A DNA stretch of 64,000 bases. Source: an uncultured Chloroflexota bacterium (GTDB taxonomy: Bacteria > Chloroflexota > Anaerolineae > Promineifilales > Promineifilaceae). This document shows, piece by piece, positions 29,100 to 41,524 of the stretch (position 1 is its first letter; each line of letters begins with the position of its first letter). The notes beneath the pieces were generated by a model that saw nothing but the letters and a program-made list of their open reading frames with translations, was not told the origin of the DNA and ran no database searches. Where the stretch lies: positions 1 to 64,000 of the forward strand of contig CAADGU010000056.1 in NCBI GenBank assembly GCA_900696625.1. The letters run 5' to 3'. Position numbers and translations under genes: made by a program.

Positions 29100-29735
29100 T
29101 TATCCTGCACCATCCAACCCGTAGACGATTGACTTTACGCCATTATCTTCCATCACTGTATCGGCTGAAAAGGAGAGAAGCGAAATCACCATGAGCAAAT
29201 CCATGGCGGAACCACCGGCGTTGAGGGCCACAAAGAATAAGAGGATGGGCACAAGGAGCATGGGTACAACCAGCATCAATGGCACACCAACCAACGTCAA
29301 TAAAACCAGCGGCGCCAGTCCCACGACAAGAACCTGATTGCGCGAGAAATAAACCCCAGGCGGCGCGGCGGTATATGGGGCCAGACCTTGCAGGCCAAAT
29401 CGGGGACGCCGGCCGGAAAATCCCCAATAAAACAGGCCATGTACCAGTTCGTGGATGATCAGCACCAGGATCAGGGCGATGACAAAATCACGAATCAGGA
29501 TAAAAGGCAAGCTGAACAGTGTGCCTGTGGCCGTGGTGGTGAGCATATCACTCAGCCGTATGCCAGCCAGCGCCGCAGGGCGAAATGTGGTGATGAATTG
29601 TGTGAGGAGCCAGATCGTGACGACGAGCAGCGCGCTGCCGGTCAGAACGGCAGCCACAGCATATTTCCAATTCTTCAATGGATCAAGAACAGCCTGTTGG
29701 CTGTAACCAGGCGGCATGGTTGTCCTCGCTTTCAT
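29100..29735 (-). CDS. DUF3267 domain zinc-metalloprotease-like membrane protein
   Basis: IIHELVHGLFYWGFSGRRPRFG (HExxH). Confidence 0.75.
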   Translation of the reverse strand: MKARTTMPPGYSQQAVLDPLKNWKYAVAAVLTGSALLVVTIWLLTQFITTFRPAALAGIRLSDMLTTTATGTLFSLPFILIRDFVIALILVLIIHELVHGLFYWGFSGRRPRFGLQGLAPYTAAPPGVYFSRNQVLVVGLAPLVLLTLVGVPLMLVVPMLLVPILLFFVALNAGGSAMDLLMVISLLSFSADTVMEDNGVKSIVYGLDGAG

Positions 29736-31306
29736 AAAATCTCCATTTGTCGCCGCCGCACCAGTAGCGCCAGCCCCAACAGCGGCAGGCTGACGGCGAT
29801 ATAAAACCAGGGTACCCCCATCGCCAGCGCGTCGCCGGTGGCGCCGGTGATGTCAAAAGCAGTCAGCCCGTTCAGCGGGCCGAGATACCAGTAGATGAGC
29901 AGTAGAATTTGCAACGGCCGTTCCGTTCCCCCCACCACACCCAACAACAGCGCCAGCGAAGGGATAAACAACGCACCCGCCACAAAACCGGGCAGCAGGG
30001 CCGGTTCTGTTAACAAACGGAGCAGCACCCCACTACCCACGATGCAATAAAGCAGAACGCCAGCCATCCAGGTCGCCGGTAATTGCCGCCACAGGGGCGA
30101 AGGGGCGCTGAACAGCAGTTGGTCCACCCCGTATTTGCGCCCCCGCATCCCCATCTCTGACCAAAGCGGCAGGGGCCAGAGCCAGACCAGAGGCAGCAGC
30201 CAGCGCTGCACTGTTTCCAGTGGCGCCAGCAGACAGGCCACAATCAGCCCGGCAGCAACGGCGTACCAGAGGGCAGAGCGGCCTTTGAGCAGAAGTTTGA
30301 GTTCGGCAGCGACGATTTGGGCGAAGAGACTGATCTGATTGTGGGAAGGGGCAACCAGCGTCAACTGGCCGCTGTGTGCAATGTTAGTTTGGATGGTTGC
30401 CTGTTTGTAAAACGATTTGCTAAATCGTTTAACCGGCATCCACTGCCGCCAGGTGGTAAATCTCCGGGCGCGTGGCGCACGCAGACGATATCGTGCCGGG
30501 TCGAAGCGGTCGAAGGGCAAGGCCGCCAACGCCGCCAGCAGCAGAGCGGCGGCTAGATAAATCAGGCGTGGCCCAGCAACGGCCGTCCAATCAAAACCGC
30601 CCCAGAGGAACGTCTGCATTTCCACAACTTCGGTGGCGCCCAAAACGATACCGCCGCTGTAATCCGCGCCCTGTGCGCGGAGGGCAACGGCCATTTCCTG
30701 CTCGATGACCTGAAAAGCGAGCAGATGGCCGCCCACCGCCGGAATCATGAAAAGCCAGAGGAAGAAGTAAAGGACGTTGCCGCCCGTTTCCCGCAAAAAG
30801 GGGGAGCAGTCGAAGAAAACGGCCGTAGCCGCCGCCAGCAAAACCACGGGCACAGCAAATACCAGGAACGGCATCAACAGTTGGTACAGGTTGAGCGTCT
30901 TGTCCTCGCCGTGAATGAGCAGCATCACCAGAGCGGCCAACGCCAACACGCCGACGATGACGAGGAGAACGGCCGTGTTGCTGGCAAATTTGCCCCACAC
31001 ATACGCCAGCCGGCGCAACGGGGAAGCTGCTAAAATTTGCCCCACACCCGTTTGCCGGTCTTGCTGCACATTGCCACGTACCAGATAAAAACCGATCAGC
31101 GACAGGAAAAAGGTCAGGGTGATGGCCATCAGCGTGCCAATCCAGGCGGCATTGTATACACCCCGGTAGCTGCCCAGGCGTAAGACGAAAAGGCCGTTGA
31201 TGACCTGGTACCCCAACAGAACGGCCAGGGCGACAATTACCAGAAAGCTAAAGCGGCGCACCCGCTCGCGGAAATCGGCCAGAGCCAGATGGTAAAGGGC
31301 GTTCAT
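29732..31306 (-). CDS. ABC transporter permease
   Basis: Multiple TM helices; overlaps ATPase gene. Confidence 0.8.
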   Translation of the reverse strand: MNALYHLALADFRERVRRFSFLVIVALAVLLGYQVINGLFVLRLGSYRGVYNAAWIGTLMAITLTFFLSLIGFYLVRGNVQQDRQTGVGQILAASPLRRLAYVWGKFASNTAVLLVIVGVLALAALVMLLIHGEDKTLNLYQLLMPFLVFAVPVVLLAAATAVFFDCSPFLRETGGNVLYFFLWLFMIPAVGGHLLAFQVIEQEMAVALRAQGADYSGGIVLGATEVVEMQTFLWGGFDWTAVAGPRLIYLAAALLLAALAALPFDRFDPARYRLRAPRARRFTTWRQWMPVKRFSKSFYKQATIQTNIAHSGQLTLVAPSHNQISLFAQIVAAELKLLLKGRSALWYAVAAGLIVACLLAPLETVQRWLLPLVWLWPLPLWSEMGMRGRKYGVDQLLFSAPSPLWRQLPATWMAGVLLYCIVGSGVLLRLLTEPALLPGFVAGALFIPSLALLLGVVGGTERPLQILLLIYWYLGPLNGLTAFDITGATGDALAMGVPWFYIAVSLPLLGLALLVRRRQMEIL

Positions 31307-32187
31307 CGAGCTGCCTCCGGTCGCGGGGCGATGAAGTAGAGGTAGGCGTCTTCCAGTGTGGCGGGCAGCGGCGCGGCGTCCGGGTGCGGCGCGTGGTCAC
31401 TGACAATGCGGGCCAAGACGCCATCGGCGCGGCGGATGGTGTTGGCGACAAGATGGTGTTGGCGAACGGCCGTTAAATCACCACTGGAAATCACCCAACC
31501 CCACACCTTGCCTTCCACCGCGCGCAACAGTTCTTCAGGCAAGGCGTGATGCAGGAGACGGCCGTCCGCAATCAAGGCAATGCTGGTCGCTGTCGCCTCC
31601 ACATCGGAGACAATGTGAGTGGACAACATGACAATCCGCTCGCCGGCCAGGTCGGCGATCAGGTTGCGGAAACGCACCCGCTCCTCCGGGTCCAGGCCCA
31701 CCGTCGGCTCGTCTACAATGAGCAAGTGCGGGTCGTTGAGCAGCGCCTGGGCAATGCCCACCCGCTGCCGCATCCCGCCAGAAAAGCCACCGATGGGCCG
31801 GTAAGCGGCGTCGGTGAGATTGACCAGTTGGATAAGTTCGTCAATGCGGCAGCGGGCCTGGGTTCGCACCAGCCCTTTCACCGCCGCCAGATAAGTCAGG
31901 AACTCGACCACATTCAGGTTGGGGTAAACGCCAAAATCCTGGGGCAGATAACCCAAAACCTGGCGCAAATGGTCTGGCTGCCGGGCTACGTCCACACCGT
32001 TCCAGGAAATGGTTCCGCTGGTGGGATGGGTAATAGTGGCGATCATACGCATGACGGTGGATTTGCCCGCCCCATTTGGCCCCAGCAGACCCAATATCCC
32101 CGGCCCCAGACGCAGGCTGAAATCGCGCAATCCCCATATGTTACGGCCGTATTGTTTGCTCAGGTTCTCAATTCGCAATTCCATCAT
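31303..32187 (-). CDS. ABC transporter ATP-binding protein
   Basis: LLGPNGAGKST Walker A, FSGGMRQRVGIAQAL signature, LLIVDEPTVGLDP. Confidence 0.96.
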   Translation of the reverse strand: MMELRIENLSKQYGRNIWGLRDFSLRLGPGILGLLGPNGAGKSTVMRMIATITHPTSGTISWNGVDVARQPDHLRQVLGYLPQDFGVYPNLNVVEFLTYLAAVKGLVRTQARCRIDELIQLVNLTDAAYRPIGGFSGGMRQRVGIAQALLNDPHLLIVDEPTVGLDPEERVRFRNLIADLAGERIVMLSTHIVSDVEATATSIALIADGRLLHHALPEELLRAVEGKVWGWVISSGDLTAVRQHHLVANTIRRADGVLARIVSDHAPHPDAAPLPATLEDAYLYFIAPRPEAAR

Positions 32188-32744
32188 GCGTTCCTTATAG
32201 TAGCGGCGTCAATGCTGGATAAATTCTTGACTTCAAACACCAGTAACAGGCTAAAAACAACCTCAACCCCGATCATCAATCCGGCCACGACAGATGGTGG
32301 GAAATTGATTCCGATGAGCAGCGCGGCAATCGGGATAATGACCGACAGCGCCATGTAGCTTCTGGATTGGTACAGCCAGCCATAGGGCAACAAATGGGCG
32401 CCAAATATCATCGCCAGGATCATCACCATTTTCTCTGGGGCAGCGTTATATACCCACATGGCAATCAGCAGATAGAGCATTTGATTGAGGGAAAACAAGA
32501 CGCCCAAATTGGTCAGCGGATTACCCTTATTGGTGAAATCTACCCGAATCAGTTTGGAAATGGCAAAGGCCAGGGGCAGCAGCGGGGCCGTAAAACAGAA
32601 GGTAAGCAGGTTTTTGGTCAGGATAGGCAAATCGGTCAAATGGACAATGAAGACGGCCGTCCATATGAGGATCGAAGCCAGAATAAAGTGTAACCCTTTT
32701 TTCTGCCGGTACGCGCTATCGAATCGCATCTCATCTAAATTCAT
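32184..32744 (-). CDS. Membrane protein
   Basis: Overlapping ATG/stop with ABC ATPase gene; several TM helices. Confidence 0.6.
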   Translation of the reverse strand: MNLDEMRFDSAYRQKKGLHFILASILIWTAVFIVHLTDLPILTKNLLTFCFTAPLLPLAFAISKLIRVDFTNKGNPLTNLGVLFSLNQMLYLLIAMWVYNAAPEKMVMILAMIFGAHLLPYGWLYQSRSYMALSVIIPIAALLIGINFPPSVVAGLMIGVEVVFSLLLVFEVKNLSSIDAATIRNA

Positions 32745-32775: not shown

Positions 32776-33669
32776 TTAACTGCCCGCTACCAGGACAACC
32801 CTATTGACAATGAAAAATCCTATATGGGCTGCGGCGTGCGCCACCATCGCCGTTTCCAAATTGCGCCGCCAGAAAAGCCAGCCAAAGAGCAGGCCGCCCA
32901 ACGCATTCAACAAAATGGTGCGGAAAATAATCAGCGGCGTCAGGACAACTATCCCCGCCAACGCTGGCAAGTGGCCTACGCCGAACAGTATAGCCGCCAG
33001 GATGATCGCCAGCCACATAATGGTCGGCCGGGGCGTGCCCTTTCCCCGCTGTAAAATGCGCCAGCCTAACCAGGCGAGCAGGCTCATAAAGCCCCAACGC
33101 AGCATCAACTCTTCGGTAATGCCGCCGTACAGCAGACCCATCAGGAGTTGCGTGAAGGGGTTGCCCTCGGTCGGCATTTCACCGATGATCTCGGCGTTGG
33201 CAAAGGGATTTATGAGCTGGTCCAGCCCCAAAACGACGATGGAAAAAAACAGACCAGACATAAATGCCAGGGGGATATGGGGCCGCAGGTTGGGCCAAAC
33301 GACTTGCTCTGAGCTTGTCGAGGGGGCCGTTCCCGTCCGCACCTTCTCCGCCACCAACGAGCGCAAGCCGATCCGATGGGCCAGCAGCGTCCCCACGGCT
33401 ACGGTAATTGCCAACAAGATGATGGGGTTAAGCAGCGACAGCAGGACAACCACGGGTATAGGCATCGCGGCCAACTCTGGCGGCAGCGCGTCCAATTGCG
33501 TCATAATCAACGGTATCAGCGATAGAACACCGAGAAGTCCCAGGCCAAAGAGGGCCAGAAAAGTTTTACCAAAGTGGGTATCGTCGGTAGGCGATGTGCC
33601 TTTCATACTGGTTGGGTTTGTCACAATATTCACAATTTCCTCCGTCGCTTTGCGGCAGAACAGCATCAT
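32776..33669 (-). CDS. CPBP family intramembrane metalloprotease (true start possibly 33606)
   Basis: YGGITEELMLRWGFMSLLAW and MVAHAAAHIGFF motifs. Confidence 0.85.
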   Translation of the reverse strand: MMLFCRKATEEIVNIVTNPTSMKGTSPTDDTHFGKTFLALFGLGLLGVLSLIPLIMTQLDALPPELAAMPIPVVVLLSLLNPIILLAITVAVGTLLAHRIGLRSLVAEKVRTGTAPSTSSEQVVWPNLRPHIPLAFMSGLFFSIVVLGLDQLINPFANAEIIGEMPTEGNPFTQLLMGLLYGGITEELMLRWGFMSLLAWLGWRILQRGKGTPRPTIMWLAIILAAILFGVGHLPALAGIVVLTPLIIFRTILLNALGGLLFGWLFWRRNLETAMVAHAAAHIGFFIVNRVVLVAGS

Positions 33670-33697
33670 GACCGCATGTTTCTTTAATTGTCAACAG

Positions 33698-33742
33698 GAT
33701 AACGGCCGTTTAGACGTAGCCGCATGGGGCAAAAGGCGTATT
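33698..33742. promoter_or_regulatory. 45-bp intergenic element, copy 1
   Basis: GATAACGGCCGTTTAGACGTAGCCGCATGGGGCAAAAGGCGTATT; same length and alignment as copies at 36928 and 41003. Confidence 0.6.
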
Positions 33743-33746
33743 ACCG

Positions 33747-34730
33747 TCACTCGCCGACTATTTCCGACAAGAACAGCCGCGTCTCGGCGGCAATGGTTTC
33801 GGCCGCCAGGTTATGGACGTAGTGGCTCACATCCAACAGCAGGTAACGGCCGTTGGGCGCTTCTTCCGTGTAGGCGACCAAAAGCTCAACCCAATTCCGT
33901 ACCGGCAAATCGGCCCCGTTAGAAATAAAGAAATAGATGGGCACAGCAGGGATACCCTGGGCGACGACTTGTTCAGCGTTGGCCTGGGTTGCGTCAATTT
34001 CGGCCAGCATATTGGCCGACCAGGTGCGCCGGTACAGCATGGCGCAGTAGGTGGCTGCTTCTTCATCCGTTAAATGCCCCTGGCTGACCGCTTCCGACCC
34101 ATGGCAAAGCGCCGGAACCAGGCGCAGCAGACCGCTGCGCGCCACAAAAGCCCCCAGGCCGATCAGCAGCCGGGGCGGCGGCATTTCGGCGTACACCGGC
34201 GGCACGGCTGGATCCAACCCGACAATCGCCACGACTTCTGCCGGGTAGAGATTGGCCCAATGCAGCGCTTCCAGGCCGGACATGGAGTGAGGCAACAAGA
34301 CGTAAGGCGGGTCTTCCCCCGCAGTTGCCAACGCTCGCCGGGTTTCAGCGACCACCGTGTCTATGTCGCGGGGCGTGTCGCTTTCGTCGCTCCAGCCGTA
34401 GCCCGCCCGCTCCACCACGACAATGCGATAATCGTCGGACAGGCGGCGGTAAAGTCCTCTAAAATCGAGCGTGGGGGCGGTGGTCCCGCTGCCCGACAGG
34501 AAAACCAGGGTTGGCTCGCCTGTCCCTTCGCTGTAGACGTGCAGCCGATGACCGTTAACTTTTACCACTTGACCCGGCGGTGGATAAGCTGCTTCTTCGC
34601 GTGGCAGTTGCAGTCGGTGGTTGATGGTGCTTCCACCTACCAGGAACACCAGGAAGAGACACAGGCCCAGGGCTATCCATTGCAATCTTTTTGTCATCAT
34701 AACCCCAATAAGTTCCAATAAGACAGCCAC
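33747..34730 (-). CDS. Alpha/beta hydrolase
   Basis: PTLVFLSGSGTTAPTLDFRGLYRRL, YVLLPHSMSGLEA (nucleophile elbow HSMSG). Confidence 0.85.
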   Translation of the reverse strand: MAVLLELIGVMMTKRLQWIALGLCLFLVFLVGGSTINHRLQLPREEAAYPPPGQVVKVNGHRLHVYSEGTGEPTLVFLSGSGTTAPTLDFRGLYRRLSDDYRIVVVERAGYGWSDESDTPRDIDTVVAETRRALATAGEDPPYVLLPHSMSGLEALHWANLYPAEVVAIVGLDPAVPPVYAEMPPPRLLIGLGAFVARSGLLRLVPALCHGSEAVSQGHLTDEEAATYCAMLYRRTWSANMLAEIDATQANAEQVVAQGIPAVPIYFFISNGADLPVRNWVELLVAYTEEAPNGRYLLLDVSHYVHNLAAETIAAETRLFLSEIVGE

Positions 34731-36787
34731 CAGACCAGGGCTAACGCCAGAACTGACAGCAGCGTCAGGTGTAGTTTAGGCCAGAGGGCAACGGCCGTTT
34801 CCCGCCAAACCAGGATGACGCTGCCCAACAGCCCTGCGGCGGTCGCCGCCGCCAGCCAGGGCAACAACAACACCAACTCTACCCCAGACGCCTCGCCGAA
34901 GAACAGGCGCGGGACGCCAAAGGCCGGGTCCACGTCGCCCACCAGGCTGGCGAAGGAGAGCAAAAAGAGAAGGAAAGACAGGGAAAAAGCAACGGCCGTC
35001 CAGCGGCTCAGGCGCAGGGATAACAGCCCCTTCGCCCGACTCAGGGCAGGCTGTTTCACCCCAGGATGGCGCAGCCAGCCAACCAACCAGCCAAAACCGG
35101 AGAGGATGAACAGCAGCAGCGTCAAGCCAATCAGCAGGGCGCTGATAGAAAGTGTGGCATACCAGGGTGCCTTAAAGGCAGACGTGGCGGTGAAGTTGAG
35201 GAAAGCAGGACGGCCGTCCAGCGACAACCACTGCCTGCCCTCAGTATCGGTGTGGAAAGCCAGGTCGCCCTGCCCCCATTCATGGCGGAACAGCCCTGGT
35301 TCAACTTCCACATACCGCTCCGGGCGACCCTCTACCATCACCTGCAAATAGCCGTCTCGCGTGGCGCTGACCTGGGCCGCTTCTAGCAGGCGAAACACCG
35401 TTGCCGGGCCACTGAAATCAGCGCGGGCCAGGTGGTATTCACCCGTATAGTCGGCCAACCGGCTGGCGGCGTCCGGCGCGGGCGTCGGGACGGGCAGAAC
35501 AGGCGCGGGGTAATATTGGTCCATAAACCGTTCCCAAAGCTGCTGCGGGGCGTCTACGCCGCCAGCGCCGTTGTAGGCGACGTACAGCCCCACGTTTTCG
35601 GTCGGCAGCAGGTAGAGACCGGCATTAAATTGGAAGGCGGAGCCGCGATGGAAGAGGACGTCATGCCCGTTGCTTCGCTGCATCATAAAGCCATAGCCCA
35701 TGCCGTCCAGGCGCGGGTCGGGGGTGTAGTGGCGGCGGTGCATCAGGTAGACTGTTTCGGGCTGGAGGATGGTAGCGTCGGCGTAACGGCCGTTTTGCAA
35801 ATGGGCGATCATAAAGCGGCTCATGTCGGCCGCCGAGGCGCTCATCGCTCCGGCCGGATACGGCGGGGAAAAGAGGAATCCGCCCGGCAGAGTACTAAGC
35901 TCGCCCGCGCCATAGCCAATCGCCAGGTCGCTGCGCAACTCTGGCGGCACGGGCTGGCGCAGTGTGCTGTGGCGCATCTCCAGCGGGGCGAAAATATGGG
36001 TTTCCACGTAATCAGCGAAAGGTTCGCCGGAGACTCGCTCGACAATGTAGCCAGCCAGGGCTGTGCCGTAGTTGGAGTAAGCCTGTGTCTGTCCTGGCGG
36101 GAAAACCCGCGCCGGTTGCAGTTCAACCAGGTATTGGCGCAAGGGCATCATCTTCTCTGCCGAGAGGACAAACAGCGCTTCGCCCTGGTCGGCAAAACCG
36201 GCCGTGTGGGTCATCAGGTAGGCCAGGGTGATGGGTTCCGGAAAGGTGGCGGGAATAGTGAAGTCCAGATAGTCGTTGACGTCAGCGTGCAGGTCAAGCC
36301 GTCCCTGTTCCGCAAGCTGCATCACGGCCGTCCAGGTGATCAGCTTACCCACCGAACCGGTACGCAAAAGGGTGCGTTCCCCATCCATCAGCCGGTTTTG
36401 GGCCTGGTCGGCCAGGCCATACCCTTTAGTCAGGATTGTTTCACCACCAGCGACAATGGTTACAGCCGCACCGGGGATGCCCAGGTCGGCCAGTTGGGTG
36501 GTGATGGTTTTGTCCAGGAATTGCTCCAGATGGGGCAGCACGGCCGTTTCACCATTGGCCTGGGCGTGTGTGGGCTGGGGGGAAGCGATCAGTAAACCGA
36601 ACAGAGCTAACAACACAAAACCGGATGATCCAGAATCGCGCCGTGACCACCGTTTTTTGAACAGAACCGCGCCTAGGGTAACCATTGCCGTGCCCATGGC
36701 CAGGTAAACCAGGCCGGCCAATGAAGCGCGAGGGGCTAAGTCGGAAACAGCAACGGCCGTTAAGAAATTCGTGATTATTCCTTGCAT
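34697..36787 (-). CDS. Serine hydrolase (class C beta-lactamase/PBP-like) with C-terminal TM helices
   Basis: RTGSVGKLITWTAVMQL (SxxK), YSNYG, HRGSAFQF. Confidence 0.88.
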   Translation of the reverse strand: MQGIITNFLTAVAVSDLAPRASLAGLVYLAMGTAMVTLGAVLFKKRWSRRDSGSSGFVLLALFGLLIASPQPTHAQANGETAVLPHLEQFLDKTITTQLADLGIPGAAVTIVAGGETILTKGYGLADQAQNRLMDGERTLLRTGSVGKLITWTAVMQLAEQGRLDLHADVNDYLDFTIPATFPEPITLAYLMTHTAGFADQGEALFVLSAEKMMPLRQYLVELQPARVFPPGQTQAYSNYGTALAGYIVERVSGEPFADYVETHIFAPLEMRHSTLRQPVPPELRSDLAIGYGAGELSTLPGGFLFSPPYPAGAMSASAADMSRFMIAHLQNGRYADATILQPETVYLMHRRHYTPDPRLDGMGYGFMMQRSNGHDVLFHRGSAFQFNAGLYLLPTENVGLYVAYNGAGGVDAPQQLWERFMDQYYPAPVLPVPTPAPDAASRLADYTGEYHLARADFSGPATVFRLLEAAQVSATRDGYLQVMVEGRPERYVEVEPGLFRHEWGQGDLAFHTDTEGRQWLSLDGRPAFLNFTATSAFKAPWYATLSISALLIGLTLLLFILSGFGWLVGWLRHPGVKQPALSRAKGLLSLRLSRWTAVAFSLSFLLFLLSFASLVGDVDPAFGVPRLFFGEASGVELVLLLPWLAAATAAGLLGSVILVWRETAVALWPKLHLTLLSVLALALVWWLSYWNLLGL

Positions 36788-36801
36788 ATCATCCTTCCTT
36801 T

Positions 36802-36895
36802 GTAAGCGTTCAGTCCCTCAAGAGACCTGACAGGTTTTTGGCCTGCAAAGTTTCAAGTTGAACTGGTAAAAAACCTGTCAGGTCTTAACGGTTAC
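36802..36895. repeat. 94-bp palindromic intergenic repeat, copy A (MITE/REP-like)
   Basis: GTAAGCGTTCAG...AGACCTGACAGGTTTTT...AAAAACCTGTCAGGTCT...AACGGTTAC; 2 mismatches over 94 nt to 40875..40968. Confidence 0.85.
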
Positions 36896-36927
36896 CTTCC
36901 TTTTGCATTGTGGGTACTTAACTTGAG

Positions 36928-36972
36928 GATAACGGCCGTCCCGGCGTAGGCGCATGGGTCAAACGGCGTATT
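36928..36972. promoter_or_regulatory. 45-bp intergenic element, copy 2
   Basis: GATAACGGCCGTCCCGGCGTAGGCGCATGGGTCAAACGGCGTATT. Confidence 0.65.
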
Positions 36973-37082
36973 GGGGTAGTATGGCGGAGGGGGTGTGTCT
37001 TGCGGTACGGCCGTTTTATTCCTATACTCTGCCGGATTAACGGCCGTCAGAAAGCGCACGAATTCTCGAAGGAGGTATTGAG

Positions 37083-37730
37083 ATGCCGGAATTGATGAGA
37101 GAGAGACGTAATTATCAAGCCGAAGTTCATTTTGCGCTGGGGGCCGTCATCCAGGGCATCATCGTCGCCGCGCTGGGTGACGAAGTCGCCAGCGTCCTGC
37201 GCACCCAGTCTTTGTTGGAATCAATCCCGGTCTTCTTTGCCGCAGCGCAAAGCCTCCTGATCTGTATCGTGTTCTGGTACAGGTTTATGGATGACTACTT
37301 CTTTGGCTTCCGGGTCCTGGTGATGACGGCCAATACACATTTTTTCTTTGCCTGTTTGTATCTGGTTCTCGGCCTGCAACAGCTTGTCGCCATTCGCTTC
37401 GTGGATGCCCCGCGAGCCTGGATGACGCTATATGTCTTGTTAATTGCCACCACGGTGCTGGGGTCTCGACTGGTATCAGCACGGGCGCAGATCATCAACG
37501 AGGCAGGGGTTAGAGCAGCACTGGACTATGATCCCGGTTCGAAGATGTTTCTCGCCACGTATGTGGCCTCGGTGCTGTGTTTGGTCTTGTGGAATGTGAT
37601 ACCTGCGGTGAATGTGGTCTGGTTTCACATGCTGGCGCTGACTATATCCGCCGTTGGACTGGTCCTGCTGGCGGTCTTCTCCATCCGGGTGTTTCGGCGG
37701 CACCTGGATGTTGGCCGGGAAGTGACGTGA
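37083..37730 (+). CDS. Hypothetical membrane protein
   Basis: Six or so hydrophobic segments; GGAGG upstream of ATG. Confidence 0.65.
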   Translation: MPELMRERRNYQAEVHFALGAVIQGIIVAALGDEVASVLRTQSLLESIPVFFAAAQSLLICIVFWYRFMDDYFFGFRVLVMTANTHFFFACLYLVLGLQQLVAIRFVDAPRAWMTLYVLLIATTVLGSRLVSARAQIINEAGVRAALDYDPGSKMFLATYVASVLCLVLWNVIPAVNVVWFHMLALTISAVGLVLLAVFSIRVFRRHLDVGREVT

Positions 37731-37740
37731 GCGCGGCGAA

Positions 37741-40521
37741 TTATAACAGCCCCAACTCGCGTCCACGCGCTACAGCCTGCGTGCGGTTTTGAACGTACAA
37801 CTTGCCGTAGATGTTCTCCATATGCTTCTTCACCGTCGCCGTGGCGATAAACAATCGCTCCCCAATTTGCCGGTTGGTCAGCCCTTCGGCCGCCAGCCGC
37901 AGCGCCTCTAGTTCCCGTTCGCTGAGTGGTTCGGCCAGCCAGTGGGCCAGATCGGGTGTTATTTCGGGCGGAGTGGCTGCTGGCTCTGGCCCTGTGGTCG
38001 CCTCTGGCGGCGAATGACCGGGTATCGGCTTGGCCTCAAAAGCAGTTAATAATTGGGCGGCGTAGGCGGACACGGCCGTATCCGCCAACACCACCCGCGC
38101 CAACAATTCCCCCAACGGCCGTCCCTCATCCACAAACAGGCGTAAATACCCCTCCGGCTCCGCCAACGTCAGAGCGCGACACAGCGTCTTTTGCGCCGTT
38201 TCCGAATCACCTTGCGCCTGCTGCGCCAACGCCTGAATAGTCAAAATCTCGATAACCTTTCCGGCGCGGCCGGCCGCTTCCGCGCCGCATAAAAGCTGCG
38301 CTAACAGGTCGTTCGCTTCGTCTGTCTTGCCCTGCGCCAGCCAGATGCGGGCCAGCAGAGTATATTCAAACTCGAACCAGTCGCCCGGTGCTGTCGCCGA
38401 TTCCAGCCCATAATTGGCCATCAACCGCGCTGCCCAGGCAGCCGCCTGTTCCAGGCGCCCCTGCCGCAGCCAGAGCCGGGCCGTCGCCGCCCCCAGGCGC
38501 AAATCCAACAAGGCCATCTGCGTGGGCTGCATCACCGCTGCCGCCAGACGCAGTACAGCGTGGGCCTCATCCGGCGCACCCTGCGCCTGCCGCAGTTGGG
38601 AGAGTGCCATCGCCCCATTCAAAACCGTTGGTCCCAATCCGGCCTGCCGGGCCAACTGTACTGCCTCTTCCAGGTAGGCGGCGGCTTCATCCAGTTGGTT
38701 GCGTTCATAATAAAGCCGTCCCAGCCCTACTTTGGGGATACTGGCAACCGGCAGTGGTCGGTTATGACGGCCGTAAGCCAGATGTTGCGCCTGTTGCCAG
38801 ATGGCGCTGGCCTGATGCAGTTGGCCGCGCAGCTCCGCCAGTTCCGCCTGTGCTGCCAGCGCAGACAATAAGGAAAACCGGTTGTCCACCTCAGCGGCGA
38901 TGGCAGCGGCGTTGCGATACGCCGCAGTGGCGGCATCCAGCCTGTCTTGCATCCGGTAAGCGTGACCGAGCATAATTTCCAACGTGCCCCGAAAACGAAG
39001 CTGGTCGTCGGGGAGTTCTGCCCGCGCCTGCAAACAGTAGGTGAGCGCATCGGCAAAACGGCCGTGATTCAAAGCAATTTGCCCCTGCAAAGCGGCTAAC
39101 TCCACATGCCAGTCACGGCCGTTTGGTTCCTGGGCCAGCAGCGACGGCAAAACGCGCGCAAAGTAAGCCTCGGTTTCGGCCATCTTTCCGGCGTACATCA
39201 ACGTCCAGGCCCGCCCCATGGCCAGGGGGCCGCTGCTGTCTACCAGTTCCGGCGGCAGCAAATCCAGCCAGCGGCGCAGGGTAGCAACTTCCCCTTCGGT
39301 GCGCAGCTTCCAGCGGGCCGCTTTTACCAGTTCACCCGCCCGCGCCAGGTCTCCAGCAGCCAGCGCGTGGCGAATGGCGTCGCCCGTAAGTTCCTGTTGG
39401 GCGCACCATTGGCTGGCTCGCCGGTGCAGCACTGCTATCTGGTCAGGATATGTCTGTTTGAGCCGGTGCCGCAGCAGGTCGGCAAACAGGCGGTGGAAAC
39501 GATACCACTGCCGCCGGTCGTCCAGCGGCGTCAGGAACAGGTTGGCAGCTTCCAACTGTTCCAGGGTGGTTTGGGCATCGTCCGTTTCTAAGACTGCCTG
39601 GCACAAGGGAGCACACAGCCGGTCTAAAATGGCGGTGCGTAAGAGAAAATCTTGAATTTGCGGTGGTTGTTTATGCAGCGCTTCCTCGATGAGGTAATCC
39701 AAGACGTAACGATGGCTGCCGGTGAAATTGGCGATGAAATCGGCGCGGGCGGCGTTATCGGCTAGAGGCTGCATGGCCAGGGCGGCCAATTGCAGTCCCG
39801 CAATCCAGCCTTCGGTGCGAGCCTCCAGGGCGGCTACATCTTCTGGGACCAGGTTGAGACCCCATATTTGTTGTAGGAAGGTAGCCGCTTCAACGGCCGT
39901 GAAGCGCAAATCAGCCGCCCGCAACTCATTCATCTCCCGTCCCGCGCGCAGACGAGACAAGGGCAAGGGCGGGTCGGCACGGCTGGCGATGATCAGCCCC
40001 AGTTGCGGCGGCTGCCGGTCAAGCAGGTAGGCCAGGCTGTCATGGATGGCTTCGTTTTCAATGACGTGATAATCATCCAGCAATACGATCAGGCGGTCGC
40101 TCCGGGCAGCCAGTTCGTTGATGAGGATAGCGAGGACGGTGTGAGGAGATGGGGAGTCTGCGGATTGCAGGAGGGCAACGGCCGTTTCACCCAATTCCTC
40201 ATCTGCCGTTTGCAAAGCGGCGATCAGGTAGCGGAGAAACAGGGTCAGGTCGTTATCTTGCTCGTCCAGCGAGAGCCAACAAAAATGAGTAATGGAGAAT
40301 GAGGCTGGATGAAGTTGAGATTCATCCGGCCCTATTTCTGACTCATAATGCTGAATCCACTCGGCCAGCAAGGTCGTTTTGCCAAACCCTGCTGGAGCGG
40401 AGATGAGGGTGAGTTTACGATCAAGCCCGTCATGAAGCCGCCCCATGAGGTGGGGGCGGTCTACCAGATTGGGTCGCACGGTGGGCGGCCACAATTTGGT
40501 CGTCAGAATAGGTTGAGACAT
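37741..40521 (-). CDS. MalT/LAL-type LuxR family transcriptional regulator
   Basis: LTLISAPAGFGKTTLLAEW Walker A, TPR-like middle, C-terminal LSERELEALRLAAEGLTNRQIGERLFIATATVKKHMENIYGKL HTH. Confidence 0.95.
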   Translation of the reverse strand: MSQPILTTKLWPPTVRPNLVDRPHLMGRLHDGLDRKLTLISAPAGFGKTTLLAEWIQHYESEIGPDESQLHPASFSITHFCWLSLDEQDNDLTLFLRYLIAALQTADEELGETAVALLQSADSPSPHTVLAILINELAARSDRLIVLLDDYHVIENEAIHDSLAYLLDRQPPQLGLIIASRADPPLPLSRLRAGREMNELRAADLRFTAVEAATFLQQIWGLNLVPEDVAALEARTEGWIAGLQLAALAMQPLADNAARADFIANFTGSHRYVLDYLIEEALHKQPPQIQDFLLRTAILDRLCAPLCQAVLETDDAQTTLEQLEAANLFLTPLDDRRQWYRFHRLFADLLRHRLKQTYPDQIAVLHRRASQWCAQQELTGDAIRHALAAGDLARAGELVKAARWKLRTEGEVATLRRWLDLLPPELVDSSGPLAMGRAWTLMYAGKMAETEAYFARVLPSLLAQEPNGRDWHVELAALQGQIALNHGRFADALTYCLQARAELPDDQLRFRGTLEIMLGHAYRMQDRLDAATAAYRNAAAIAAEVDNRFSLLSALAAQAELAELRGQLHQASAIWQQAQHLAYGRHNRPLPVASIPKVGLGRLYYERNQLDEAAAYLEEAVQLARQAGLGPTVLNGAMALSQLRQAQGAPDEAHAVLRLAAAVMQPTQMALLDLRLGAATARLWLRQGRLEQAAAWAARLMANYGLESATAPGDWFEFEYTLLARIWLAQGKTDEANDLLAQLLCGAEAAGRAGKVIEILTIQALAQQAQGDSETAQKTLCRALTLAEPEGYLRLFVDEGRPLGELLARVVLADTAVSAYAAQLLTAFEAKPIPGHSPPEATTGPEPAATPPEITPDLAHWLAEPLSERELEALRLAAEGLTNRQIGERLFIATATVKKHMENIYGKLYVQNRTQAVARGRELGLL

Positions 40522-40616
40522 AGAGACATTATAATGTGCCTCTCCGTTCTGCCCAAACGAGGCCTTCCCTCAAATGATAATATCATCGCCCAGCACGGCA
40601 CAACCCGATTTCATCT

Positions 40617-40832
40617 TCACGCCTCGTCATTGTTTTGCTGTTGTACAGACAGTAATGGCAGGCCCAGGTCGCGGATGCGCGTCAGAATGCCGTGCAGGGC
40701 GGCCTGATCCGCCACTTGTCCATGCAAAAGGGTCGTGCCGTCTTCCAGATGACGCAGGTTCAAACCATCAAATTCGGCAGCCCAATCCGGGTCCAGATGG
40801 CCTCTGATGCGGATGTAGTAAATGTCAGGCAT
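40617..40832 (-). CDS. Small conserved hypothetical protein
   Basis: MPDIYYIRIRGHLDPDWAAEFDGL...GTTLLHGQVADQAALHGILTRIRDLGLPLLSV, upstream of LAL regulator. Confidence 0.65.
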   Translation of the reverse strand: MPDIYYIRIRGHLDPDWAAEFDGLNLRHLEDGTTLLHGQVADQAALHGILTRIRDLGLPLLSVQQQNNDEA

Positions 40833-40874
40833 GGTGTTCCTCGTTAAAACTGTGGGGCAATTTGATGTTTTGCT

Positions 40875-40968
40875 GTAAGCGTTCAGTCCCTCAAGAGACC
40901 TGACAGGCTTTTGGCCTGCAAAGTTTCAAGTTGAACTGGTAAAAAACCTGTCAGGTCTGAACGGTTAC
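40875..40968. repeat. 94-bp palindromic intergenic repeat, copy B
   Basis: 98% identical to 36802..36895; long internal inverted repeat plus matching outer ends GTAAGCGTTCAG/CTGAACGGTTAC. Confidence 0.85.
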
Positions 40969-41002
40969 GTTTTGCCCATTGTTTTTGGGTAACTGGCTAT
41001 AA

Positions 41003-41047
41003 GATAACGGCCGTTCCGGCGTAGGCGCATGGGTCAAAAGGCGTATT
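41003..41047. promoter_or_regulatory. 45-bp intergenic element, copy 3
   Basis: GATAACGGCCGTTCCGGCGTAGGCGCATGGGTCAAAAGGCGTATT. Confidence 0.65.
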
Positions 41048-41068: not shown

Positions 41069-41524
41069 ATGAACAGGATGCAGGTACAGGCCATATCCGG
41101 CAGGGGCGACCAGGCTGACCTGCCGCTGCCTGCGGGTAAGGGCAGCTATGCCCTCCTCTTGCACCTGGCAGAACCGGCCTGGATTGAGGTGGGGCAGTTG
41201 GGGCGGTGGCCGTTTGCCGCCGGGCATTATCTCTACCTGGGCAGTGCGTTGGGGCCAGGGGGATTGGCGGCGCGGCTGCGGCGCCATTTATCGCCGGTGG
41301 AACGGCCGTTTTGGCACATAGATTATTTGCGGCGTCAGGCAGTGGTCACGGCCGTGTGGGTTCAGCAAGGCCCGGCGCGCCTGGAATGTACCTGGGCGAC
41401 GCTGGCCGCCCAATGGCCGGACGTCACCATCCCCGTCCCCCGTTTTGGCGCCTCAGATTGCCGCTGTGCGGCGCATCTGGTTTATAGTTCTTCAGGATTT
41501 GGCGAGATGGGGCGTGATGCGTGA
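41069..41524 (+). CDS. GIY-YIG/DUF123 family protein
   Basis: GSYALLLHL...GHYLYLGSALGPGGLAARLRRHL...FWHIDYLRRQA...RFGASDCRCAAHLVY. Confidence 0.85.
   Translation: MNRMQVQAISGRGDQADLPLPAGKGSYALLLHLAEPAWIEVGQLGRWPFAAGHYLYLGSALGPGGLAARLRRHLSPVERPFWHIDYLRRQAVVTAVWVQQGPARLECTWATLAAQWPDVTIPVPRFGASDCRCAAHLVYSSSGFGEMGRDA

Follow-up and report, generated by a model that had tools for sequence, protein, structure and literature searches.

What is a 45-bp sequence doing three times, in one orientation and always between genes, around the gene for a MalT-like regulator? The locus lies in the first 64,000 nucleotides (forward strand; the window) of contig CAADGU010000056.1, assembly GCA_900696625.1, from an uncultured Chloroflexota bacterium of the family Promineifilaceae, and the regulator belongs to the large ATP-binding LuxR (LAL) proteins, which are numerous and for which few binding sites are known. 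A preliminary description of the window had suggested that the element may be the operator of this regulator, an idea now strongly supported by comparison, through co-occurrence, orthologous targets at unlinked loci, promoter geometry and parallels across the family. At a probability of about 0.84, each copy would be a LAL-regulated promoter of the leftward (minus-strand) gene or operon, with a 30-bp core as the LAL binding site. It appears to be one of a wider set of operators, apparently undescribed, in which the sequence follows the recognition helix of each regulator.

Three probable promoter copies and their counterparts in a second genome

The degenerate 45-mer starts at positions 33698, 36928 and 41003 (copies 1, 2 and 3) with zero mismatches; the gap-free alignment, common orientation, intergenic position and coordinates first described for it are exact, and the count expected from 100 dinucleotide shuffles of the window is 0. 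A genome-wide motif search had been proposed as a check on the operator idea. Run against the entire 6.95-Mb assembly with up to three mismatches, the core pattern returned these three copies and no more, all in promoters and none within a gene; the three-copy observation is real and local. A profile built from seven sites (three in this genome and four in the second genome described below) separates real sites, at 53.7 bits or above, from everything else, at 16.7 bits or below; the window-genome copies score 59–61 bits, and no further site in that genome exceeds 14.3 bits.

Read gene-ward on the minus strand, the cores of copies 1–3 (33713–33742, AATACGCCTTTTGCCCCATGCGGCTACGTC; 36943–36972, AATACGCCGTTTGACCCATGCGCCTACGCC; 41018–41047, AATACGCCTTTTGACCCATGCGCCTACGCC; each located by pattern, alignment and profile) take the form AATACGCC-N-TTTGMCCCATGCG-S-CTACGYC, and the seven sites together AATACGCC-N-TTTGMCCCATGCG-N-CTACGCC. 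This conserved stretch of 30 bp contains the direct hexamers TACGCC, TGCGNC and TACGCC, with boundaries as we read them from the seven sites; the middle hexamer (TGCGSC in copies 1–3) stands immediately before the second TACGCC, and single variants of the last box occur in copy 1 (TACGTC) and at one site of the second genome (TGCGCC, contig C239). The direct repeat, noted at first as two GGCGTA units about 20 bp apart, holds, and is refined here to TACGCC...TACGCC, whose starts lie 22 bp apart on the gene-facing strand.

A −10 box of the form TAnnnT follows the core at a constant 11 bp in 7/7 sites. From the alignment of sites, those of the window are TATCCT (copy 1, 33696–33701), TATCCT (copy 2, 36926–36931) and TATCTT (copy 3, 41001–41006), all on the minus strand. 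No −35 consensus was found at the seven sites: 17 bp before the −10 box, every one of them has the hexamer TGCGNC, a poor match to TTGACA. The constant distance from site to −10 box and the missing −35 consensus are features of a sigma-70-type activator-dependent promoter, and the directly repeated short boxes, present at seven promoters in two genomes, are those of a MalT-type operator; the MalT box itself, GGA[TG]GA, is absent from all seven cores. The first description is refined at the GATAACGGCCGT end of the 45-mer, which lies outside the operator core and comprises most of the −10 box plus the octamer ACGGCCGT.

The proposed cognate regulator (926 aa, 37741–40521, minus strand) has the domain content of a true LAL protein, namely an ATPase (AAA_16/NPHP3_N), TPR_MalT (E=5e-69) and a GerE helix-turn-helix (HTH; E=7e-18) carrying the helix TVKKHMENI, and it matches the MalT structure 8bob at E=7e-50 over residues 6–425. 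It is not a MalT equivalog, scoring 452 bits against the cut-off of 537 for NCBIfam NF003420.

Mismatch-tolerant searches covered 52 genomes of the family and 396 of the class (417 distinct), and an exact scan covered 84,980 GTDB genomes, possibly excluding the records of the window genome itself. Beyond the window genome, the element occurred convincingly among the 417 only in G042, the Anaerolineae metagenome-assembled genome CSSed162cmB_92, and the exact matches of the larger scan fell only on contigs of this same genome. Matches with three mismatches in G335 and G004 were rejected as chance, since reversed-pattern controls gave similar counts. G042 also holds the only close orthologue of the regulator (61% identity, 1169 bits; the next best in the class sample reaches at most 667 bits and 46%), and among aligned LALs the helix TVKKHMENI is common only to these two. 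Co-occurrence with the regulator's orthologue had likewise been suggested as a check, and the element is absent from the searched genomes that lack one.

The four G042 sites lie on four contigs. One (C100) precedes an orthologue, 81% identical, of the 71-aa protein found below copy 3; another (C238) precedes orthologues of the serine hydrolase (65%) and, in equivalent position, the alpha/beta hydrolase (74%) found below copy 2; one directly follows the 3′ end of the LAL gene and precedes a 200-aa protein and an MFS transporter; and one precedes a hydrolase/protease/ABC operon. Orthologous targets at unlinked loci therefore carry sites with the same orientation and −10 offset as in the window. 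At orthologous promoters the core is 87–93% identical and the flanks, at 28%, are random, a conservation that spans another genus. Serine hydrolase homologues (38–46%) were found in six more genomes, all without the element and without the LAL orthologue, which indicates that the element follows the regulator and not the target family.

Putative operators beside related regulators

The 71-aa protein below copy 3 (40617–40832, minus strand) has no match in Pfam, NCBIfam or PHROG. It is predicted, from a single sequence and with a pLDDT (predicted local distance difference test) of 90, to adopt a ferredoxin-like beta-beta-beta-alpha-beta fold, weakly similar to ACT, Lrp-type and acylphosphatase domains (E about 0.01–0.06). 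Matches to ubiquitin-like proteins were disregarded, being short (residues 27–54) and of a different fold. Homologues are present in 40/52 family genomes, and at least 56 of 100 among the matches listed lie on the same strand as a LAL gene, no more than 1 kb downstream of it. This consistent linkage suggests that the small protein is an unrecognised component of this type of signalling, and its gene marks the location of each LAL's operator, making dozens of operators readable next to their regulators.

Most of the 56 LAL/small-protein intervals retrieved for operator reading hold a repeat operator, and its sequence depends on the LAL helix. Helix TVKGHN.. goes with CAAYACY-N6-CAAYACTwwAGT.., T[MLI]RTHT.N with AATCACC-N5-AATCACCA..TGGTGATGA..CTCACCA, TVKAHT.. 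with AAATAAACCCCCAAATA, TVKKHTTH with GATTACACC, [VA]KWHAHN with CCTATCGGCCGATAGG, TVLYH.KN with AACCACAG repeats, and the window-type TVKKHMEN with TACGCC. Across 49 modules, the more alike two helices are, the more alike their operators tend to be (Mantel r=0.67, p=0.001), and a partial correlation of 0.35 (p=0.001) persists given the similarity of the rest of the HTH and of the small protein, a test in which relatedness among modules is controlled in part only. Promoter geometry recurs as well: in the two largest classes, 11/18 and 7/11 modules have TA[TC]nnT at a distance of exactly 10 bp from the final box, and none has it elsewhere between offsets 4 and 19. The operator specific to one class is present in four genomes, in each as a single copy beside its LAL.

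The arrangement reaches beyond the phylum, on plasmids. In Deinococcus and Chlorohelix plasmids the LAL gene stands directly before the small-protein gene, and in plasmid pREC3 of Acaryochloris marina a few genes separate a small-protein homologue from a LAL upstream of it. This homologue is itself preceded (locus L138, 4830–4960) by AATCCCCA boxes of similar spacing and a −10-like TACTTT; these repeats are predicted to be the operator of a cyanobacterial LAL. A homologue (52%) was also seen on the unannotated 10-kb plasmid pDR48-2 of Pseudomonas sp. DR48 (L145), an odd place for it and possibly a contamination.

Chances slightly better than even may be given to the proposal that LAL, fixed-geometry operator-promoter and ferredoxin-like protein of about 70 aa form a widespread, undescribed module, multiplied in Chloroflexota and also carried on plasmids of Cyanobacteriota and Deinococcota, in which each paralogue's operator matches its helix and the small protein may act as feedback partner or ligand carrier of the LAL. 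If true, each genome would possess many insulated switches, and an HTH-to-DNA code could be read from them. A literature search for LAL modules in Chloroflexi found nothing relevant.

Alternative explanations and neighbouring repeats

By analogy with MalT, the LAL protein, bound to ATP and ligand, would oligomerise, its GerE domain would bind the hexamers of TACGCC type that cover the −35 region, and the core, 11 bp upstream of the −10 box, would stand in for a −35 element as the bound protein recruits housekeeping RNA polymerase. Genes switched on in this way would be those of the 71-aa protein, of the serine hydrolase and alpha/beta hydrolase, and of a CPBP protease with a DUF7010 protein and an ATP-binding cassette (ABC) exporter. 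Were the LAL protein instead to bind as a repressor, its site would still be well placed, for it overlaps the −35 region, a position that repressors also use, and the LAL protein SCO6993 does repress (PMC9628970). Activation is favoured, however, by the constant −10 spacing and the lack of a −35 consensus: the distance from operator to −10 box is fixed within classes, as expected if the protein must contact polymerase, and the type member MalT is an activator (PMC9628970). Repression is considered unlikely. A little less probable again is that the element is the operator-promoter of a different regulator common to both genomes (another LuxR-type protein, a response regulator or an alternative sigma factor), with the neighbouring LAL gene a coincidence. 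Against this, the gaps beside related LALs hold operators of an analogous kind, which vary with the recognition helix, one G042 site stands right behind the LAL gene, and the −10 box is housekeeping-like in 7/7 sites.

Several points nevertheless weigh against LAL-regulated promoters. The exact element is known from two genomes, both fragmented draft assemblies, which lends the idea of a different regulator some weight, so that its exclusive co-occurrence with the regulator amounts to one evolutionary association, and another trans-acting factor restricted to these two genomes is a candidate alternative. Before partialling, the correlation with the operator is about as high for the rest of the HTH (0.68) as for the helix (0.67), the result that shared ancestry would produce, and the window core is without the outer box and the inverted box seen in other operator classes. 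Physical binding by the LAL protein, activation over repression and a ligand are all things that we infer.

Local spread of the 45-mer as a mobile or extragenic repeat could be suspected from a genuine dispersed repeat beside two of the copies and from the genome's abundance of the octamer ACGGCCGT. The dispersed repeat, a hairpin of 95–98 nt resembling a miniature inverted-repeat transposable element (MITE), is, however, a separate entity from the operator. It lies on the gene side of copies 2 and 3, between copy 2 and its gene (36801–36895) and between copy 3 and the small open reading frame (ORF; 40874–40968), copy 1 being without it; it has imperfect terminal inverted repeats (GTAACCGTTCAG / CTGAACGCTTAC), folds with z of −3.4 and −4.0 in its two window copies, and was not seen at the orthologous G042 promoters. 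This hairpin is dispersed in about 40 or more copies genome-wide, against three copies of the 45-mer, all in promoters, with constant orientation and gene spacing and with a conservation that, between random flanks, extends to the orthologous promoters of another genus. Spread as a MITE or repetitive extragenic palindrome is contradicted by this, and we rule it out as very improbable. Copies of the hairpin were also seen on contigs with other LAL genes (C518, C279).

The octamer, a palindrome, has 140 copies in the window, roughly one every 460 bp, where base composition predicts 1.6, and it fills the spacer between operator and −10 box only in the window genome. It is also abundant in the G042 loci and in some other genomes of the family. 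As an iterated octamer it resembles HIP1 of cyanobacteria, from which it differs in sequence; a literature search found no description of an iterated ACGGCCGT repeat.

Least probable of all is a role at the RNA level (as leader, riboswitch or terminator), for which the intergenic upstream location alone speaks. The element has neither the stable fold (z 0.0, −0.95 and 0.55) nor the Rfam match expected of a structured RNA family, and transcripts begun at the −10 box, which lies downstream, would not include it; this reading, too, was ruled out.

Likely target operons and known systems

Because all seven sites point to one side, the likely targets are the three leftward operons. Copy 1 faces genes for a CPBP/Rce1-like membrane protease (32776–33669) and a DUF7010 membrane protein (32184–32744), both identified by domain search, followed by an ABC ATPase (31303–32187) and an ABC-2-type permease (29732–31306) that overlap and end the operon (29732–32187); gaps in this series are short or the genes overlap, and all lie on the minus strand. 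A GTG near 33633, preceded by GGAGG, may be the true start of the protease gene instead of the ATG at 33669. G042 has a DUF7010 gene as well, placed after the small ORF of its C100 site, with just 20% identity to the window protein. PADLOC matches of the ABC ATPase were set aside as reflecting the shared ATPase domain. Under copy 2 lie the genes for a membrane serine hydrolase of beta-lactamase fold (34697–36787) and an alpha/beta hydrolase (33747–34730), and under copy 3 the 71-aa protein followed by the LAL gene, these too on the minus strand. ACATTATAAT ends about 9–10 bp before the LAL ATG in the window (40522–40540) and in G042, and its position just before both genes suggests that the regulator has a near-leaderless promoter of its own.

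Of the regulon members first listed, the CPBP protease, the serine hydrolase and the small ORF are retained, and the membrane protein at 37083 and the GIY-YIG protein at 41069 are ruled out, lying on the wrong side and having no homologues near the G042 sites. Membrane hydrolases, a CAAX-type protease and exporters would fit an envelope or antimicrobial response, though this is a guess.

Among the closest known systems are the MalT boxes of E. coli and Klebsiella, short direct repeats upstream of several operons, which a STAND/LAL regulator recognises through its GerE domain. Pairs of direct repeats are given as a feature of all maltose promoters (Vidal-Ingigliardi 1991, as cited in PMC8265627), and the MalT box consensus is GGA[TG]GA (PMC9628970), whereas the window hexamers are TACGCC/TGCGNC and the regulon comprises membrane hydrolases, a protease, an exporter and a small protein, with no sugar genes. 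With the Streptomyces LALs, such as SCO6993, the regulator shares its large ATP-binding LuxR architecture; SCO6993 binds its target promoters at sites reported as unrelated degenerate palindromes, and the study concerned could not derive a binding consensus (PMC9628970), unlike the long, well-conserved window operator with its fixed spacing to the −10 box. Further parallels are the other modules (family f1 and the Acaryochloris, Deinococcus and Chlorohelix plasmids), in which a LAL lies near the same small-protein family and about 10 bp separate the final box of a repeat operator from its −10 box. Those classes differ from the window in having their own box sequence, often with an additional outer box, 12 bp upstream, and a box in inverted orientation, and in gene order, the small-protein gene following the LAL where the window ORF precedes it. 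The modules make LAL DNA specificity directly testable and regulons predictable in uncultured Chloroflexota, and are a source of possibly insulated activator/promoter pairs.

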